The translations under genes and the position numbers were made by a program. DNA of 64,000 bases from Pyrinomonadaceae bacterium (GTDB taxonomy: Bacteria; Acidobacteriota; Blastocatellia; Pyrinomonadales; Pyrinomonadaceae), in NCBI GenBank assembly GCA_021228405.1, contig JAJQRF010000007.1, positions 124,794-188,793 on the forward strand. Direction: 5' to 3'. The notes beneath the pieces were generated by a model. It saw only the letters and a list, made by a program, of their open reading frames with translations. It did no database searches and was not told the DNA's origin. Of this stretch, positions 3,186 to 64,000 are shown one piece after another (the first letter of the stretch is position 1; the number at the start of each line of letters is the position of its first letter).

Positions 3186-6100
3186 TTATTTCCGGATAGC
3201 TGTAAAAGCGTCCGCCAAACGGTCGCGCCACGCCGTCCAGTTATGCCCGGCTTCTTTTTCGTTGTAAGTTACATCAAAGTTTTTATTTTTCAAGATTCCG
3301 ACGGCTTTGCGCGAATCTTCGACACCTTTGAGCGTTCCGTCGTCGATATAGAACTTAAACTTCGTTTTTCCGTCGAGCTTTGCAAGTTCCTTGATAACTC
3401 TTTCATCATCGACCCAAAACGAAGCCGACTGTGCGCCGATACTGCCGAAAACATCAGGATATTTCAACGCCGTGTGAATGCTCGTAATACCGCCGAGGCT
3501 TGCACCGATGATCGCGCGCCCATCACGCGATTTGACGGTTTTATAGTTGGCATCGATCATTGGAACGACTTCTTCGGCAATAAACTTCGCGTAATCGTCA
3601 TTTGCCCAATATTCCTTCATACGGTCTTTCGGGTCGAGAAAAACCATTATGAAAGGTTTGATTTTATTTGCTTTGACAAGATTTTCCATCTGAACGGAGG
3701 CTTTTGCCCTTTGCAGATAATCACTTCCGTCCTGCAAATATAAAACGGGAAAAGATTCTTTCGATTTTTCATAGCCGTAAGGCAAATAAACCTTGATTTT
3801 CTTCGTTCCGTAATCTTTTGTTTGAATTTCTAATTCCTTAATTTCAATATCGATTACATAAGGTTCCGGGTCGCCTTCGATCTTAAATGATTCTTGTTCA
3901 TCCCAAGTTGTCGGTTTATAATCCGGCATTTCAAAAAACGAATTTTCCCCGCCGACACCGTTATCGATCTTATTCGGATTCAGCGGATCGTTTATCCATT
4001 TGCCGTCAACAATGAGTTTATATTCGACCCTTGCAGTATTCGGAAACTTTAATGTAATCGGATGAACATTCGGCAAACCGTTTATGTTGCTAAATTTTAT
4101 TCCGCAGGGTTTCCAATCGGTAAAATCACCGACAATTTCAATGTCTTTTTCCATTCCGAAATAAGCAAACCGCATTGCGCTTTCTTTTTCTCCTTTGCTG
4201 CCGAAAACAGTCGGGTATTTTTCGCTTTTCTGCGGAATTGTCTGCAAAATTTTGCTGTCGTCGAAAACGTATGTTTGTGCTTTTTCACAACCCGCAATTT
4301 TGAGTGAACGCGTTGCCGAAGTCTGTAAAGGCAGATTAGAAAAAGACGGATTCGGTTGACTTACTAAACCCGCATTTTCATTCTTTTTCCCTAAAACATA
4401 TCTTTCATAAACGACATCGGGCGTGTCGAGATTTTTGCCAGCCTGTAAATTGACGGCAAGGCGGATGAATTGCGCCATCGACCACGCGAGCGGAGTTGCC
4501 GAGCCGGTTCCTTCGCCGAATTTGAGTTCGGGAACGAATTGACGGTCAATATTTTTCGGCGGTTGCGGTTTATCCCAAACCTGTTCGGCGATCATCAAAC
4601 CTTCGTTTGCAAAGCCGAGCATTGAATCCAATCTCGCTTGCGGATTTAGGACTTTGGACTTCGGACTTTGCACTTTGGACTTGAGCGCAAGTTCATATTG
4701 TCCGCGTTCGCCCGAAAGCAACGCCCAGAGTCTTCCTTTGCCCGTGTATTTTCCGTCCCAATTCCAACGTCTGCCGTCGTCCATTTCGCCGTAGCCGTCG
4801 TTGTTGTAGCGGTAAAACGAATCGCCGTGCGGAGTTTTGACGCGGATCACGTCGTCAACGACCTTGAGCGATTTGACGATCAAAGGATCGTCGGGCGATT
4901 TGATGCCTAATCTGACCAATTCCAAAAATCCCGCGTCAACGATTTCGTTTTCATAAAAACTTCCCGCGTTGTTGTTTAGTTCGATCTTTTCGCCCGCGTC
5001 GGGTTTGCCGTTGGCGGTCAGACGCACGTAATAATTGCCGTCGCCGTATTTTCCGTTCGTCGTCGCCGTCCATTTTTCGACGTTCGCCTGCCAGTCGTCC
5101 GCCGTTTTCAGCCAAAGATTCGCGCTTTCCGTGTCGCCGTTTTTCTTCGCGACTTCCGCCGCACAAACCAGACCCGCGATTTCCGCCGCGATTGTCGAAG
5201 GCGAATAACCGCCTTTTTCCTCCCAGCGTTCCTGCGGTGTAACGGGACCGTTTTTGACGATAAAATCGGCGGCTTTTTTGACGTGATTTTCGTAAGTTTC
5301 CTTGTCGAAACGCTTCAACTGATACGCCATAATCAGCGGATAACCGACTTCATCCATTTGCAGTCCGCCCCAGCCGTTGCGCCCGTCGAGCCACGAATTT
5401 TGCGGAAAACTTCCGTCCGGCTTCTGCTGAATCTTGAACAAAAAATCGAGTGCACGTTCCGCCGCCGCCGTGTCGCCGAGCGCGAGATAAGCCGTAAAAA
5501 CCTGATAAAGATCGCGCGACCAAACCAGATGATAACCGCCGCCGACATCTTCGTTAGCCGTCAAACCGCCGCCCCACGGAATCGTCAAACTCGCCACATT
5601 TGCACCGCGCACGGTTTTGTCTTCGTAAGCCTTTAAAACCATCGCCGCCATATTAAACTGCGCCTGATATTTCGGCTCGACCTTGCGGACGGTTTTCACA
5701 TAATCCGACCAGCCTTTTTCATATTCGGCAAGACATTTCGCAAAACCTTTTTCGTTCGATTTTGCCGCGACGGTCGAAGCTTTCAAAATATCTTCGCCGA
5801 ACGAAATGATCGTCGTAAATTGCTGCGGCTTCATAATGCGCGCCATCTGCACGACGTTTCCGTTCGTCGCTTCGGCATAAGTTTCCGTGATCTTGCCGAA
5901 CTTTCTCAACTGTTCCAAACCGTCGTTTTTGCCGAGATAATTGTTCGTATATTCTTCGATGTCCGACGAAAAAAAGACCGCCGAAGCATATTTGCCTTCT
6001 TCCGCACCCATTCCGCCGCTGACGGTCGCCGAACCTGCTTTTTTAATTGTTTTTACGCCGTCTTTGGTGATCGTTCCTTTTTCATACTCGTAATTGCCGA

Positions 6101-6698
6101 CAAGCTGAAGCAAAGGAGAATAAGCGCGGTCGTGCATTCCCGTGTTGGCGAGCGAAGGATCGTAATAAACATACAGATTCAGATTTTTATTTTTCGCTTC
6201 AAACTTTACATCGATCAAAACCGAAGCGCGTTCGGTGTCGGTCGTGTAGGTTTTCGTGATCTTCCACGCGCCGTTTTTGGCGGTGTTTATCTGCTGAAAA
6301 CTGAGCGAATCCGAATGCAAAGGTTTGATCCGATGAACCGCGTCGTCGCGTTCGGTTTCGACCTTTTTCGTCTTCGGATCGACCACGACAAACTGCAAGA
6401 CGTGAACGTTCGCGATCGTCACATCGGGATAATAAACTTCGGTCAAAACGCCCTGCGCCAACGTAAACCAAATCTTACTTTCCAAACTCGCGCTCGTTCC
6501 GATCGCCTGTTTTCCGGCGGTTGCCCATTGCGCATCGTTTCCCGGCGCACCGGGCGCAAGCGTTTGCGCTGTCGTTGAAAAACAAAGAAAAATTAGCCAC
6601 AGACAAACACAGATCGACACAGATATTTTTTGGAATATCCTTTTACCTTTAAATCTTTTGACTGCTCTTTCCTTCACAAAATCGAAATCTTTTTTCAT
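3186..6698 (-). CDS. Secreted GH15 glucoamylase-CBM48-esterase fusion
   Basis: A 1170-residue exported enzyme. Signal peptide about 1-45 ending TTAQ; glucodextranase-type N domain about 50-330; GH15 (alpha/alpha)6 domain about 340-750 with WSRDLYQVF, QMDEVGYP (Glu450, likely acid) and AEQVWD (Glu705, likely base); a CBM48-like beta-sandwich at about 838-925 (VGDFTDW); and an enterochelin-esterase-like alpha/beta hydrolase at about 950-1170 with Ser1067 in GASLGG and His1152 in GHNW. GH15 enzymes release glucose or isomaltose-type units from chain ends. The appended esterase may remove acyl groups from the glucan or from a linked substrate (inference). Residues 673-687 are an insertion encoded by a dispersed repeat. 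It is the last gene of the starch locus, after the small secreted protein upstream. Confidence 0.92.
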   Translation of the reverse strand: MKKDFDFVKERAVKRFKGKRIFQKISVSICVCLWLIFLCFSTTAQTLAPGAPGNDAQWATAGKQAIGTSASLESKIWFTLAQGVLTEVYYPDVTIANVHVLQFVVVDPKTKKVETERDDAVHRIKPLHSDSLSFQQINTAKNGAWKITKTYTTDTERASVLIDVKFEAKNKNLNLYVYYDPSLANTGMHDRAYSPLLQLVGNYEYEKGTITKDGVKTIKKAGSATVSGGMGAEEGKYASAVFFSSDIEEYTNNYLGKNDGLEQLRKFGKITETYAEATNGNVVQMARIMKPQQFTTIISFGEDILKASTVAAKSNEKGFAKCLAEYEKGWSDYVKTVRKVEPKYQAQFNMAAMVLKAYEDKTVRGANVASLTIPWGGGLTANEDVGGGYHLVWSRDLYQVFTAYLALGDTAAAERALDFLFKIQQKPDGSFPQNSWLDGRNGWGGLQMDEVGYPLIMAYQLKRFDKETYENHVKKAADFIVKNGPVTPQERWEEKGGYSPSTIAAEIAGLVCAAEVAKKNGDTESANLWLKTADDWQANVEKWTATTNGKYGDGNYYVRLTANGKPDAGEKIELNNNAGSFYENEIVDAGFLELVRLGIKSPDDPLIVKSLKVVDDVIRVKTPHGDSFYRYNNDGYGEMDDGRRWNWDGKYTGKGRLWALLSGERGQYELALKSKVQSPKSKVLNPQARLDSMLGFANEGLMIAEQVWDKPQPPKNIDRQFVPELKFGEGTGSATPLAWSMAQFIRLAVNLQAGKNLDTPDVVYERYVLGKKNENAGLVSQPNPSFSNLPLQTSATRSLKIAGCEKAQTYVFDDSKILQTIPQKSEKYPTVFGSKGEKESAMRFAYFGMEKDIEIVGDFTDWKPCGIKFSNINGLPNVHPITLKFPNTARVEYKLIVDGKWINDPLNPNKIDNGVGGENSFFEMPDYKPTTWDEQESFKIEGDPEPYVIDIEIKELEIQTKDYGTKKIKVYLPYGYEKSKESFPVLYLQDGSDYLQRAKASVQMENLVKANKIKPFIMVFLDPKDRMKEYWANDDYAKFIAEEVVPMIDANYKTVKSRDGRAIIGASLGGITSIHTALKYPDVFGSIGAQSASFWVDDERVIKELAKLDGKTKFKFYIDDGTLKGVEDSRKAVGILKNKNFDVTYNEKEAGHNWTAWRDRLADAFTAIRK
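4645..4686 (-). repeat. Low-complexity repeat inside the GH15 gene
   Basis: The plus strand reads as repeated GGACTTTGGACTTCGGACTTTGC-type steps about 9 nt apart; on the coding strand it gives SKVQSPKSKV. GH15 relatives pass directly from the GERGQYEL element to the following helix, so this is an in-frame insertion in a surface loop of the catalytic domain. The same AGTC/GGACT word style recurs in the hairpin at 30432-30468. Confidence 0.7.
6593..6628 (-). repeat. CACAGA dispersed repeat, copy 1 (within a signal peptide)
   Basis: The plus strand has ATTAGCCACAGACAAACACA followed by GATCGACACAGATA. On the coding strand it is the hydrophobic core of the GH15-esterase signal peptide (ISVSICVCLWLIFL). 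A near copy at 7253-7290 does the same for the next gene upstream, and a third, inverted copy is intergenic at 6713-6740. Confidence 0.75.
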
Positions 6699-6740: not shown

Positions 6741-7304
6741 TCATTTCTGCACGGTAAATTTTCCGTTTTTCCAGATCAGATCGTAAAGCTTCGCACCGCG
6801 TTCGGTGATGTCGGTGTCAACCGTTTTTCTCCTGTAAACTTCGACGGTCGTGCCGATGCGGGGCAGTTCATAGAGATTGTTTTTGGAAAACTGCGGAATC
6901 ACTTTTGCCGAAATGTCGAACCACTTTCCGCCCTTGTATTCGAGAAAATAATTTTCGCTTCCCATCTCGAATTCGGTCTTTAACGCAACGATATAACTCG
7001 CGTCGGGACGTTTGAAAAGTGCCATCGTCAGACAGCTTTGCGCGCCGTCGCAACCCGATTTCCAAAAGCCGTTCGCGGTGTCTTCGGTTTCCAGAAACGT
7101 GTCGATATATTCGCGCCGCGCCTTATCGCAATTTTTATCTTTGGCAGGTTCACAGCCTTCGAGCGTGAAATATTTCGCAGGCAGAAGATTGAAAAAATCG
7201 CGCACCGTTTTCGGATGTTTCGTCTGCGCGTTGATCGAAAGACAAAGCAGAATTAACCACAGATTTACACAGATAAACGCAGATACTTTTTTGATATTTT
7301 TCAT
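6741..7304 (-). CDS. Secreted protein of unknown function
   Basis: A 187-residue exported protein: signal peptide of about 27 residues (ICVNLWLILLCLSINAQ) followed by a soluble domain. Features seen are Cys pairs in LEGCEP...KNCD and SGCDGAQSC, which could form disulphides, and a mixed alpha/beta pattern with many aromatic residues. I do not recognise the family. It lies between the GH13 gene and the GH15-esterase on the same strand, with 42 nt to the GH15 start, so it probably shares their transcript. Its signal-peptide core is encoded by a dispersed repeat shared with the GH15 gene. Confidence 0.8.
   Translation of the reverse strand: MKNIKKVSAFICVNLWLILLCLSINAQTKHPKTVRDFFNLLPAKYFTLEGCEPAKDKNCDKARREYIDTFLETEDTANGFWKSGCDGAQSCLTMALFKRPDASYIVALKTEFEMGSENYFLEYKGGKWFDISAKVIPQFSKNNLYELPRIGTTVEVYRRKTVDTDITERGAKLYDLIWKNGKFTVQK
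7253..7290 (-). repeat. CACAGA dispersed repeat, copy 3 (within a signal peptide)
   Basis: The plus strand reads AATTAACCACAGATTTACAC then AGATAAACGCAGATAC, very like copy 1. On the coding strand it supplies VSAFICVNLWLILL, the membrane-inserting core of the small secreted protein. Confidence 0.75.
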
Positions 7305-7388
7305 AGTTTTTTCTCAAAAAATCCGAAACTTTTTGCGAATCAAAACTGCTGAATTCCTTGATTTATCCTTTCAGATTCTTCAAAAATA

Positions 7389-9203: not shown

Positions 9204-11150
9204 TTATTTCTTCAAATGTGCCGCAAAACCGCCGCCCGATGCCATTTTGATGATTAATTTATCGCCTTTTTTGAGCGGCTGTTTCGTCAGTTTGAAATCG
9301 GACGCGAAACGGTCGGCGTTGATACCGTCTTGATAAATCGACGCGCTGTAATTTCCGTTTTCGAGAAATGAAAGATCGATCGTAATCTCGCGCGGTGTCC
9401 AGTCGTTCATCGCGCCGATAAACCAATCGCCGTTTTCCTTCTGCCGTGCGACGACCAGATATTCGCCGATCTTGCCGTCAAGCGGAATAGTTTCGTTCCA
9501 GATTGACGGCACCGCCGCGAGAAACTCCATTGCTTCGGGTTCGCGCAGATAATTTGAAGGATTGTCCGCGAGCATCTGCAAAGGACTTTCGTAAATGACA
9601 TACATCCCAAGCTGATGACAGCGCGTGCCCTGACTCATCGGGCGGTTGAAATCGATCTTGAAATCCTTTTCGCCCGCGTTGAGCATTGCACCGGGCGTGA
9701 AATCCATCGGTCCCGCCACCATTCGGATAAAAGGCAGATCGAGGTCGTGTTGCGGTGTAATATCCTTTGACCATTTGCTGTTTTCCAAACCTTTCACGCC
9801 TTCGCGCGAAACGGCGTTCGGATATTTGCGCTCCATTCCCGTCGGTTTGTATGACCCGTGGAAATCGACCAGCATTTTGCGTTTTGCCGCTTCGTTTGCA
9901 GTTCTTTCATAGAAATCGACCATTTTCTGATCGTCGCGCTGCATAAAATCGACCTTAATTCCCTTCACGCCCCATTTTTCAAATTGATCGAGCGCGGGAA
10001 TCATCTGTTTATCGAGCGAAGTCCACAAAACCCACAAAATGATGCCGACATTTTTCCGTTTGGCATAGGCAAGCAGTTCGGGCAAATCAACGTTCGGATT
10101 CAGGGTTAATAAATCGTCGGTTTTCGACCAGCCTTCATCGAGGATCAGATATTCCAAACCGTATTTCGCGGCAAAATCGAGGTAGTATTTGTAAGTTTCG
10201 GTATTTACGCCCGACTTGAAATCGACCCCGTAAATGTTGTTCGCATTCCACCAATCCCACGGAACTTTACCCGCTTTCACCCACGAGAAATCTTCGTTCG
10301 TTCCTTCGGAAAGCAGGTAAACGAGCTGATTATCGATGAGTTCGGAATCCTTTTCCGCTAAACCGAAAATGCGCCAAGGAAAAGACTTTTTGCCGTCCGT
10401 TTTCGCAATAAAATCGGCGCGTTCCGTAACTTTGATGTCGCGGTCTTTGACGGCTTCTTCCTTCGCCGGATAATTCGGGAAAACTGCTTTCAAACCGTTT
10501 CCGTTCGCGCCTTCGAGCCACATTCCCGCGTAGCCGTAAAGATCGGCTTCGGAAATCCAGAGTTTCGCCCCCGTCTGGGTCGCAACAAGCGCGGGCAAAC
10601 TCGCCAATTGATTTTTCAATTCGCCCGATTTATAACGCACATAAAGCCGTTCGTTATGCGAGTAAAAACTTTCTTCCTGCGGGTAAAAAATCGTATCCTG
10701 CGGAGCGAGATTAATCGCCGCTTGCTCGGCTGAAACGGTGATTTCGCCATTCAGTTCGGTTTTCCAACGATACGCCGCGCCATTGTCGTAAACGCGCCAA
10801 ACAAGAGCGTAACCGCCGTTAAAATTGAGCGTCAATTCATTGAAAACATCTTTTATTTTCCGTCTTTTCTGCGGCACGATCGCCGTCACGACCTGCTCCA
10901 CACTACGCTCTTTTTTGCCGGCAACTTTCGGATTGACCGCAACGGCGGGATTTTCCTTGAGGCTCAAACCGATTGCCGATTCGGAAACGATCGTTTGCCC
11001 GTTGAAAAGAAGCGAATAATAAACTTTATCCGCGACTTTCAAGCGAACTTCCGCTTTCCCGTTCGGCGACCGCAGAGAATAATTCTGCGCCGAAACGCTG
11101 AGGGCGGAGCAAACTGCGATCAGAACGATCAAAAAGAATGTTTTCTTCAT
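9204..11150 (-). CDS. Secreted GH97 alpha-glycosidase
   Basis: GH97 enzyme of 648 residues. I place the start at ATG 11150, giving MKKTFFLIV and a signal peptide ending VSAQ; the frame is open 32 codons further but would overlap the upstream permease gene. Seen: N-terminal beta-sandwich (about 22-285), barrel with WDWWNANN and YLILDEGW, KVDFMQRDDQ at about 400-408, and GPMDFTPGAM. The family acts on alpha-glucosides (SusB) or alpha-galactosides. The Asp401 in KVDF occupies the place where, as I recall, retaining GH97 enzymes carry the nucleophile and inverting SusB does not, so substrate and mechanism should not be assumed from the starch context. It follows the MFS transporter by 40 nt. Confidence 0.9.
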   Translation of the reverse strand: MKKTFFLIVLIAVCSALSVSAQNYSLRSPNGKAEVRLKVADKVYYSLLFNGQTIVSESAIGLSLKENPAVAVNPKVAGKKERSVEQVVTAIVPQKRRKIKDVFNELTLNFNGGYALVWRVYDNGAAYRWKTELNGEITVSAEQAAINLAPQDTIFYPQEESFYSHNERLYVRYKSGELKNQLASLPALVATQTGAKLWISEADLYGYAGMWLEGANGNGLKAVFPNYPAKEEAVKDRDIKVTERADFIAKTDGKKSFPWRIFGLAEKDSELIDNQLVYLLSEGTNEDFSWVKAGKVPWDWWNANNIYGVDFKSGVNTETYKYYLDFAAKYGLEYLILDEGWSKTDDLLTLNPNVDLPELLAYAKRKNVGIILWVLWTSLDKQMIPALDQFEKWGVKGIKVDFMQRDDQKMVDFYERTANEAAKRKMLVDFHGSYKPTGMERKYPNAVSREGVKGLENSKWSKDITPQHDLDLPFIRMVAGPMDFTPGAMLNAGEKDFKIDFNRPMSQGTRCHQLGMYVIYESPLQMLADNPSNYLREPEAMEFLAAVPSIWNETIPLDGKIGEYLVVARQKENGDWFIGAMNDWTPREITIDLSFLENGNYSASIYQDGINADRFASDFKLTKQPLKKGDKLIIKMASGGGFAAHLKK

Positions 11151-61134: not shown

Positions 61135-62610
61135 TTAATTTTTTGAAGCGGTTTTCATCAAAATCAGATACAAAACAAACCCGATGGCAAAAGTCACGAA
61201 CCACGCGTAAATATAAAGCGTGTCGAAAAAATTCGGGTCGGCGACTTGTCCGTTCGGAGTCGTCGCGGCGCGTAGAAATCCGGGAACGACGGGCAGAATC
61301 GCAACGATCAACGCAATGATCGCACGCCAATTGAAACCGCCCGAATATGAATAAATTCCGTCGGTTTTAAAAAGTTCGGCGAGTTTTAAATTCCTGCTTC
61401 TTAAAATAAAATAATCGGCGATCATCACGCCGCCGATCGCGCCCATCAAGCCCGAATAACCGATCAGCCACGTGAAAATATACGCGCCCATCGAAGACAT
61501 CAATTGCCAGGGCATCATCAAAATTCCGATTGTTGCAGTAATCAAACCGCCCGCGACGTAGGAAATTCTCTTCGGACTCAGGTTGGAAAAATCGTTCGAC
61601 GGCGAAACGACGTTTGCCGCCATATTGGTCGAAAGCTGGGCGAGAAAAATTATGAGCATCGCAAATAAAATCACGACGACGCTATCGAATTTCTTCATCA
61701 GATCGACCGGGTTCGGAATCGCTTCGCCGTAGATTATGACGGTCGCGGAGGTGACGGCAACGCCGATAAAAGCGAACGCCGTCATCGTCGGCGGAAGCCC
61801 GAAAGCCTGTCCGAGCATCTGCGATTTTTGCGATTTCGCGTAACGCGTAAAATCGGGAATATTTAAACTTAAAGTCGCCCAATAACCGACCGAAGCCGTC
61901 AATGCGCCGGGAAATATCGACCAGAAATCGGCTCGGGTTTTCTGCAAAGCCGTCACGTTCGACAAAACATTTCCCAATCCGCCCGCGTTCGATGCCGCCC
62001 AATAAAGCAAAACCAGACCGCCCAAAAGCAACAAGGGCGCAGACCACGATTCGAGATATTTGATGCCTTCGATGCCCTTCAAAATGATAAAAACCTGAAT
62101 CGCCCAAAACGCCAGAAATGAAATCCAAAGATGCAGAGGATTTCCGCCGATTGAAGTGTCGAAATTCGCCCAACCCGACCAAACCGCCGACAAAAGCGCG
62201 TCGATCGCCTGTCCGCCGATCCAGGTCTGAATCCCGAACCAGCCGCAAGCGACAATTGCGCGAAGAACCGCCGGAATATTCGCGCCTTTTGTCCCAAACG
62301 AAGCGCGGCACAAAACGGGAAACGAAACGCCGTATTTCGTTCCGGCGTGTGCATTGAGAATCATCGGAATCAAAACGATACAGTTTCCCAGGAGAATCGT
62401 AATCATCGCCTGCCACCAATTCATTCCCGCTTCGATGAATCCGCCCGCGAGCGTGTAAGTCGTGATGACGACGCTCATCCCGATCCACAGCGCAGCAATG
62501 TTCCACGTAGACCAGGTGCGCTCTTTGATCGTCGTCGGCGCAAGATCGTGATTCCAAAGCGGCGAAGCGGAAACGTCTTCGGTCAGTTCGACAAAATCTT
62601 GATTGTTCAT
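61135..62610 (-). CDS. NCS1-family nucleobase permease
   Basis: A 491-residue inner-membrane transporter with twelve hydrophobic segments. LWNHDLAPTTIKERTWSTWNIAALWIGMSV at residues 18-47 is the NCS1 opening, followed by GGFIEAGMNWWQAMITILLGN and VLCRASFGTKGANIPAVLR. The family moves uracil, cytosine, allantoin or hydantoins with sodium or protons. Its start overlaps the stop of the cyclohydrolase-like gene by 4 bp (ATGA). The neighbouring pathway points to uracil or a related pyrimidine as substrate. Confidence 0.93.
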   Translation of the reverse strand: MNNQDFVELTEDVSASPLWNHDLAPTTIKERTWSTWNIAALWIGMSVVITTYTLAGGFIEAGMNWWQAMITILLGNCIVLIPMILNAHAGTKYGVSFPVLCRASFGTKGANIPAVLRAIVACGWFGIQTWIGGQAIDALLSAVWSGWANFDTSIGGNPLHLWISFLAFWAIQVFIILKGIEGIKYLESWSAPLLLLGGLVLLYWAASNAGGLGNVLSNVTALQKTRADFWSIFPGALTASVGYWATLSLNIPDFTRYAKSQKSQMLGQAFGLPPTMTAFAFIGVAVTSATVIIYGEAIPNPVDLMKKFDSVVVILFAMLIIFLAQLSTNMAANVVSPSNDFSNLSPKRISYVAGGLITATIGILMMPWQLMSSMGAYIFTWLIGYSGLMGAIGGVMIADYFILRSRNLKLAELFKTDGIYSYSGGFNWRAIIALIVAILPVVPGFLRAATTPNGQVADPNFFDTLYIYAWFVTFAIGFVLYLILMKTASKN

Positions 62611-63119
62611 ATTTTCAATTTTTTAATTTCTGAAACGCTGATCGAATATTGCCGTAAATCATCTGCTTTTTTGTCGTTGTCAGTCAGCAAAATAATCGAT
62701 TCGACCTTCAAATCCCGTAAAATTTCGGCGGCAGGTCTGAAGTTTCTCGCATCCTTTTCAAAACCTGCCTTTTCGTAGGCTTCCGCTTGTTTTATTCCCG
62801 CTTTTTTATACGGAATGCTTGCCATTAATGCCAGATGCCCGTTGCCTTTGCCCTCCTGTTCGAGATAGATTATCAAGCCTTTTCCCGCTTGCTCAATCGC
62901 GCTCTGCGCCCCTTCCATTTCCGCTTGGCATTCGCATTCGACGCTGTTAAAAACGTGTCCGGAAACACAAGCCGAATGAATGCGGCAAATCACGTTTTTT
63001 TCATTTTCAATGTTTCCCATCACGAGCGCGATGGATTCTCTCTGCCCGTCGTAAAAAAGAATTTCACGAAACGTGCCGTATTTTGTTTGTAAATCTCTCT
63101 CCGTTAACCTGAAAATCAT
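62607..63119 (-). CDS. Short GTP cyclohydrolase II-like protein in a pyrimidine cluster
   Basis: A 170-residue protein with the GCHII fold. The zinc site CVSGHVFNSVECEC (Cys51, Cys62 and Cys64) matches RibA's C-x10-C-x-C; YLEQEGKGNG replaces the usual YLRQEGRGIG, and GFEKDARNF corresponds to GFxADxRDF with the Asp-x-Arg catalytic pair kept. It is shorter than RibA and lacks a partner DHBP synthase domain. RibA makes the riboflavin precursor; a GCHII relative (URC1) works in yeast uracil breakdown. The gene is one base from the dihydropyrimidinase tail and overlaps the permease. Confidence 0.8.
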   Translation of the reverse strand: MIFRLTERDLQTKYGTFREILFYDGQRESIALVMGNIENEKNVICRIHSACVSGHVFNSVECECQAEMEGAQSAIEQAGKGLIIYLEQEGKGNGHLALMASIPYKKAGIKQAEAYEKAGFEKDARNFRPAAEILRDLKVESIILLTDNDKKADDLRQYSISVSEIKKLKI

Positions 63120-63120
63120 C

Positions 63121-64000
63121 TTAAATCTTCACGCACTCGCCGCGTTTGACGAATTGACCGCTTCCTTTTTCGACCAGACATTCGCCGTTTTCGATGACGA
63201 CGCGACCGCGTGAAAGGACGGTTTCGATTTTGGTTTTGATTTTATGTAGTTTGGGCTCAAACTCTTTGTCGTTTGATTGTTCCGCATAAAATGTAAAATC
63301 AACAATTAAATTGTGATTATTGTCTTCCAGTTTTTCGTAGGTTTCGGAATGGTCAAAAAGTCCAGTTTGATTTGTCTTTTTTTCAACAAAATCACCAAGT
63401 GCCGAAACACCGTCAAGGAAACGATCAAATATTGTGTTGATAGCTTGATTGCTACAATCAATTCCGATCCATTTTCTATTTAACTCATTAGCAACTGCTA
63501 AAGTCGTTCCTGAACCTGCAAAACAATCCAAAATCAAATCGCCTTCATCTGAGGAGGCTTTGATGATTCGTCTTAAAATTTCAGGATTTTTTTCGGTTGG
63601 ATAGCCTGTGCCTTTAGTGTTTTGGTTGTTGATGTCTAAATAATCTAGCCAAATATCCTGAACGGGAATTCCTTTGCTGTTTTCGAGATAAACTTTGCGG
63701 CGCGGATTACCATTTGACGACCAATAAATCTCGCCTCGTTTGTCCATTTCTTCCAAAGTAGCGGGAATAAATTGCCAATGTTTTCCGGCGGGCGGCATCA
63801 TTCCGCGCCAAGGTTTTCCAGATTCTCCGTTTCTTACGCCGGGAGCATGAATTGGAACTTTTTTGTAGCGTCTACCTGTCGTTTCTTCGATAAACGGATA
63901 TTCTTTCAAAACTTTTTCATCTGTCCATTCATCGTAAGGACGATTCCAAATCGGTTTATCGGTTTTTGTGTAAAATAAAATGTAGTCTGAAATATTGCCG
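63121..64000 (-). CDS. DNA methyltransferase fused in frame to a dihydropyrimidinase tail (partial)
   Basis: The frame is open from the right edge to the stop at 63121. From the edge it reads as a beta-class N6-adenine/N4-cytosine DNA methyltransferase, with TEKNPEILRRII and the SAM-binding motif CFAGSGTTLAVANELNRKWIGID; the DPPY motif must lie further right. About 34 codons before the stop the sequence changes to ETVLSRGRVVIENGECLVEK and GSGQFVKRGECVKI, the C-terminal strand of dihydropyrimidinase/hydantoinase. At 63226 the base composition also switches from AT-rich to the GC level of the operon. Either a recombination replaced the rest of the hydantoinase gene, or the sequence is chimeric. 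Confidence 0.8.
   Translation of the reverse strand, partial: GNISDYILFYTKTDKPIWNRPYDEWTDEKVLKEYPFIEETTGRRYKKVPIHAPGVRNGESGKPWRGMMPPAGKHWQFIPATLEEMDKRGEIYWSSNGNPRRKVYLENSKGIPVQDIWLDYLDINNQNTKGTGYPTEKNPEILRRIIKASSDEGDLILDCFAGSGTTLAVANELNRKWIGIDCSNQAINTIFDRFLDGVSALGDFVEKKTNQTGLFDHSETYEKLEDNNHNLIVDFTFYAEQSNDKEFEPKLHKIKTKIETVLSRGRVVIENGECLVEKGSGQFVKRGECVKI

Follow-up and report, generated by a model that had tools for sequence, protein, structure and literature searches.

A BstEII-type restriction-modification unit at the 3' end of a hydantoinase gene in a Pyrinomonadaceae genome, probably inserted with duplication of about 100 bp of its target

A hydantoinase operon that holds a restriction-modification unit

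The window analysed here, a stretch of 64,000 nucleotides from a Pyrinomonadaceae genome (contig JAJQRF010000007.1, positions 124,794 to 188,793), ends inside a DNA methyltransferase gene (M) whose reading frame runs into the end of a hydantoinase gene. To describe the whole locus, we also used a 19-kb region around that window edge (L004, corresponding to G000:C6:184000-203000, with G000 denoting the genome itself). Positions in this region become window numbering when 59206 is added, and those beyond 64000 are given below in this extended numbering. On the minus strand, the genes follow one another in the order hydantoinase (459 aa), R (286 aa), M (about 447 aa), GCHII-like gene (170 aa) and permease (491 aa).

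65327-66706 (extended numbering), minus strand: intact hydantoinase gene, 459 aa, whose 3' 103 bp form the upstream repeat copy
64470-65330 (extended numbering), minus strand: R gene, a BstEII homologue of 286 aa
to 64464 (extended numbering), minus strand: M gene beyond the window, starting with an ATG 5 nt past the R stop codon
64000, minus strand: window edge, inside M; the same contig continues
63228-64000, minus strand: 3' part of M within the window (PF01555; PADLOC MTase_II)
63125-63227, minus strand: downstream copy of the duplicated hydantoinase 3' end, a 103-bp repeat with 96% identity to the end of the intact gene
62607-63119, minus strand: GCHII-like gene (PF00925), its ATG 1 nt past the copy of the hydantoinase stop
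61135-62610, minus strand: permease gene of the same operon (open reading frame), kept beside GCHII in relatives and putatively of the NCS1 type, the name given in a preliminary description of the window

The hydantoinase, R and M genes all lie inside one 279-kb contig, of which about 188 kb extend on one side of the M/hydantoinase junction and 90 kb on the other. The operon is of the pyrimidine-degradation type. The 459-aa hydantoinase scores 612.7 bits against TIGR02033 (NCBIfam cut-off 393), is matched by D-hydantoinase structures over its full length and is the only hydantoinase match at E < 1e-100 in the genome. The GCHII-like neighbour, already recognized in the preliminary description, matches PF00925 with an E value of 2e-41 in an HMM search. 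GCHII, which was next to hydantoinase on the 3' side before the insert arrived, lies directly 3' of the hydantoinase gene in G032, G058 and G078, and this single-domain gene, so placed in several relatives, may have a role in pyrimidine breakdown like that of yeast URC1. The hydantoinase gene is immediately preceded by a gene for an IS200-like/REP-associated Y1 transposase (66713-67358 in extended numbering; L004 7507-8152), which is bounded by 29-bp near-perfect inverted repeats. Outside the window, at L004 18235-18560, an array of 21-bp units is followed by an inverted array (arms of 122 nt, 75% complementary).

The final 103 bp of the hydantoinase gene recur 2.2 kb away, at 63125-63227, as a direct repeat (96% identity, E 2e-44). 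A comparison over 33 codons shows 3 differences in 99 positions, and the stop codons differ too (TGA upstream, TAA downstream). The copies thus agree with each other at 96 of the 99 positions, whereas no relative matches them at more than 87, so the duplication is local. At all three internal differences the downstream copy has the majority base of the relatives. It also retains the native passage into the GCHII-like gene (GTGAAGATTTAAG...ATGATTTTCAG), as at the empty site of G032, and its TAA (63121-63123) is the original hydantoinase stop, now ending M. The upstream copy runs into R through an ATGA overlap between the hydantoinase stop and the R start ATG. Between the copies lie only R and M, and we found neither a transposase or integrase gene nor bounding inverted repeats in this insert. 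In G032, a genome of the same family (locus L050), the hydantoinase stop is followed after 9 nt by the GCHII start and then by the permease, with one repeat copy and no insert. When the flanks of our locus are joined through a single repeat copy, they yield a 459-codon hydantoinase gene, 1 nt and the GCHII-like gene, and align with G032 in one 2000-bp alignment, whereas the occupied sequence breaks into two pieces.

The R and M genes and the avoidance of GGTNACC

R matches the BstEII structure 9ibq full-length (residues 1-284, E 2.5e-85), with no PDB match other than BstEII. M is a beta-class N6/N4 DNA methyltransferase in which the DPPY ... FAGSGTT motifs are kept. The frame 63121-63999(-) is open, and matches to N6_N4_Mtase (PF01555, E 2.5e-48) and to PADLOC MTase_II (E 1.6e-130) bear out the identity proposed in the preliminary description. 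The pair resembles the BstEII restriction-modification (RM) system (R structure 9ibq/9ic8) in the full-length homology of R and in the adjoining beta-class methyltransferase, but differs from it in the 34 extra hydantoinase residues of M. Most BstEII-type homologues have about 25 residues near the M N terminus that are absent here. The GC content is 0.39 in R and 0.37 in M, compared with 0.49 in the hydantoinase gene.

The preliminary description had read the last 34 residues of M as a hydantoinase C-terminus. TIGR02033 (D-hydantoinase), which matches M residues 414-448 with an E value of 3e-5, and the 103-bp DNA repeat both uphold that reading. The junction lies at 63227/63228, within 2 bp of the position near 63226 suggested earlier, and coincides with the drop in GC content noted at the time (0.52 in the tail, 0.37 in the M body). 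The tail comprises these 34 residues only, without a complete amidohydrolase fold or active site, the full enzyme being encoded by the separate upstream gene. A homologous methyltransferase adjoins R in all 11 BstEII-like loci of a genome scan and in G429, the one in L040 being cut by the locus end. Homologues placed beside a BstEII-like R come from Chloroflexi/Anaerolineae MAGs, one cyanobacterium, one lentisphaeran, Saprospiraceae, Nonlabens, Thiomargarita, Paraliobacillus and one relative of the same class as our genome; the start of M was chosen from homologues beginning MATG(I/V)SK. Such R-M pairs are thus found in groups as distant as Chloroflexi, Cyanobacteria, Lentisphaerae, Bacteroidetes and Thiomargarita. 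The hydantoinase tail is present in none of 11 homologous methyltransferases that each stand beside a BstEII-like R, so that the tail of M reflects a fusion and does not belong to the family. Most homologues stop soon after a conserved F-x-(F/L)-(Y/A) stretch, approximately where M meets its tail, which argues that M lost little more than its stop codon; a few continue past that stretch with unrelated residues. An AlphaFold model of M (mean pLDDT only 64) has a moderately confident core and a tail (427-454) mostly below pLDDT 50, and in so tentative a model there is no sign of the tail joining the M fold.

The recognition site of BstEII is GGTNACC. In a 400-kb sample of the genome this sequence occurs once where its sub-words predict 29.7 occurrences, and none of the other NNN-N-NNN palindromes, of which 58 in all could be tested, is avoided so strongly; it occurs once in 483 kb (37.8 expected) and not at all in the window (5.0 expected). 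The whole genome contains 38 sites in 5.72 Mb, and six relatives (3.0-6.4 Mb) contain 212-551. The relative G056, in which no R was found, has 49 sites against 59.4 expected; for the hydantoinase loci of relatives taken together, the count is 117 and the expectation 142.7. In G429, the nearest genome to carry a related R (70% identity), the site is not obviously scarce, as judged without a model expectation. The genome-wide scarcity of GGTNACC suggests that the unit works with BstEII specificity, and offers indirect but specific evidence that such an enzyme has acted in this lineage. The unit is presumably still functional, since R is full length, M keeps its catalytic motifs and GGTNACC is avoided in the genome; the fused M would then be active. 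Loss of the site throughout the genome presumably implies a long residence of such an enzyme, in tension with the near-identity of the repeat copies, which points to a recent insertion. This discrepancy would be accounted for by gene conversion between the repeats, by previous residence of the unit elsewhere or by an older isospecific system, and we make no choice among the three. GCTNAGC (45 in 5.72 Mb; 1 versus 22.7 expected in 483 kb) and GGCNGCC (14 versus 86.9 expected) are also avoided in this genome, suggesting further RM systems, and other methyltransferase-like genes are located at C7:1128911, C19:74674 and C7:679938.

Gene-end copies at hydantoinase genes of the family

Partial copies of gene ends (scars), with the 3' end repeated downstream or the 5' end upstream, were sought at 65 hydantoinase loci of the same family, our own included. 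We counted terminal pieces of at most 35% of the protein, on the same strand, within 8.6 kb and with E values of at most 1e-4. In this test, which was prompted by our own case and whose weakest remnants span only 14-20 residues, scars accompany 12 of the 65 hydantoinase genes, compared with 11 of 1193 control ORFs, which were drawn from randomly chosen stretches of two genomes, from the window and from argG loci. The difference has a Fisher p of 1e-10, with several of the genomes congeneric and events possibly shared by descent; for argG alone, 1 gene in 37 has a gene-end copy. On these counts the hydantoinase gene appears to be a recurrent insertion hotspot in the family, a status that we infer would hold after correction for descent. 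Our own genome yielded one further candidate among 293 ORFs (400 kb), so the process is not rampant throughout that genome.

In DNA alignments the scars have sharp borders, and the first codon of the duplicated piece varies from genome to genome (about 401 to 444). In the genomes examined, the remnants almost always represent only the outermost 15-60 residues and lie beside an apparently intact cargo gene. Scars can be stacked, as in G011, where the order is hydantoinase, subtilase, tail, creatininase, tail, kinase, tail. Cargo or neighbouring genes encode AbiEii (G042 and G056), MazE with PIN (G066), PIN, NurA/HNH/DruA, PD-(D/E)XK, SnoaL-like, MOSC and beta-lactamase proteins. No integrase was found among the scanned cargo proteins of relatives, and a Pfam scan of two cargo genes in G034 returned no family.

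Gene-end scars are not confined to hydantoinase genes. The end of argG in G059 (L161; 20 residues, 95%) is repeated 1.5 kb downstream, at 10801-10860; a 552-aa gene in G056 (L149 13480-15138) has two stacked downstream copies of its C-terminal end; and in the window, the N-terminal 49 residues of a 1170-aa ORF (3186-6698, minus strand) have a diverged copy (43%) just upstream, at 7212-7340. In G030 (L051 6675-8021), an HNH_5 endonuclease gene lies between the hydantoinase and GCHII genes and overlaps the end of the former; no remnant copy was detected beside it.

Insertion with target duplication and its alternatives

We consider it highly probable (about 0.9), from the comparison of sequences, that a complete type II RM unit of the BstEII type was inserted at the 3' end of the hydantoinase gene with a target duplication of about 100 bp. 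Under this model, R followed by M (about 2.1 kb, without an integrase or transposase) would have entered at the very end of the hydantoinase gene while some 100 bp of target were doubled, one copy completing hydantoinase and the other sitting after M. R would begin in the hydantoinase stop (ATGA), where its translation by coupling is possible. In the insertion M would have been deprived of its original stop codon and of no more than a few residues; lacking that stop, M would read through the duplicate, acquire 34 extra hydantoinase residues and end at the old hydantoinase stop. The model presumes a single insertion event, and the duplication may have arisen, for example, from a long staggered break that was filled in or from repair that stepped back about 100 bp on the sister copy. 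Homologous recombination between the direct repeats would also be able to excise the unit precisely or to amplify it.

That RM genes can insert with target duplications of about 100 bp has already been described (PMC3874152, PMC3031569 and PMC1643837, in which Nobusato et al. 2000 and Furuta et al. 2010 are cited for insertion with long target duplication). The features shared with our locus are the absence of a transposase, a direct duplication of about 100 bp and a genome with the empty site, and the locus agrees with the published description on all testable points. It differs from the cases described there in the in-frame fusion of M to the duplicated end of the host gene, in the start of R inside the host stop codon and in the occurrence of similar scars with quite different cargo at the same host gene in other genera. 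A limited literature search returned no earlier description of an in-frame fusion of M to hydantoinase, of a hotspot at this gene or of non-RM cargo landing repeatedly at one host gene.

An identical final sequence would result if the hydantoinase gene had first been duplicated in tandem and R-M had then replaced codons 1-425 of the second copy. The downstream remnant in G059, which has an internal piece (residues 202-244) in addition to the end (401-459), looks as a decayed full copy would. This route, however, requires two events and a replacement that starts precisely at the stop codon of the first copy and reaches into the second, and remnants in the family are nearly always limited to the outermost residues beside apparently intact cargo; we regard it as improbable. 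Slightly less probable still is a site-specific integrative element with its att site at the hydantoinase 3' end. Our locus recalls islands in tRNA genes in that the gene is whole on one side of the insert and left as a 3' fragment on the other, and several genera share the use of this gene. The insert, however, measures only 2.1 kb and has no recombinase, there is no constant core, the scanned cargo proteins of relatives include no integrase, the start of the duplication varies and the 5' end of the gene serves as a site too.

The preliminary description, to which the complete hydantoinase and R genes were invisible because they lie just outside the window, had envisaged that a methyltransferase gene replaced most of the hydantoinase gene, by illegitimate recombination or island insertion, or else a wrong join in the assembly. 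The idea of insertion was right in spirit, but nothing was replaced. Displacement of the body of the only hydantoinase gene is supported solely by what shows inside the window and is refuted by the intact gene 2.1 kb upstream in the same operon and on the same contig, immediately upstream of R-M, so that we give it practically no credence. A misjoin at about 63226 is, judged from the assembled sequence, very unlikely: the repeat copies are not identical, the reading frames and the operon continue on both sides within one long contig, and the same type of scar recurs in independent assemblies.

Beyond the insertion of the RM unit itself, we see about even odds that the hydantoinase gene of this family is a recurrent landing site for small cassettes (RM, AbiEii, MazE/PIN, nucleases, creatininase and kinases). 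These would enter successively at its 3' or 5' end by a general mechanism that needs no recombinase, doubles 50-280 bp of target and does not disrupt the gene, the stacked scars recording the growth of the operon. The present case shows how a housekeeping operon can take up a defence unit and stay unbroken, and how target duplication can yield a protein fusion as a by-product. Stacked scars at one gene provide a natural record for studying the poorly understood insertion with long target duplication, and could extend its study beyond Helicobacter and RM genes to the gene ends that are hit, the lengths of the duplications and a possible host factor.

Among other BstEII-type RM units, at which flanking repeats were also sought, a long one was found only in Candidatus Thiomargarita nelsonii (L045), where a 197-bp direct repeat (79%) lies at -391..-202 upstream of R and at -17..+153 around the end of M and may reflect a further long target duplication.
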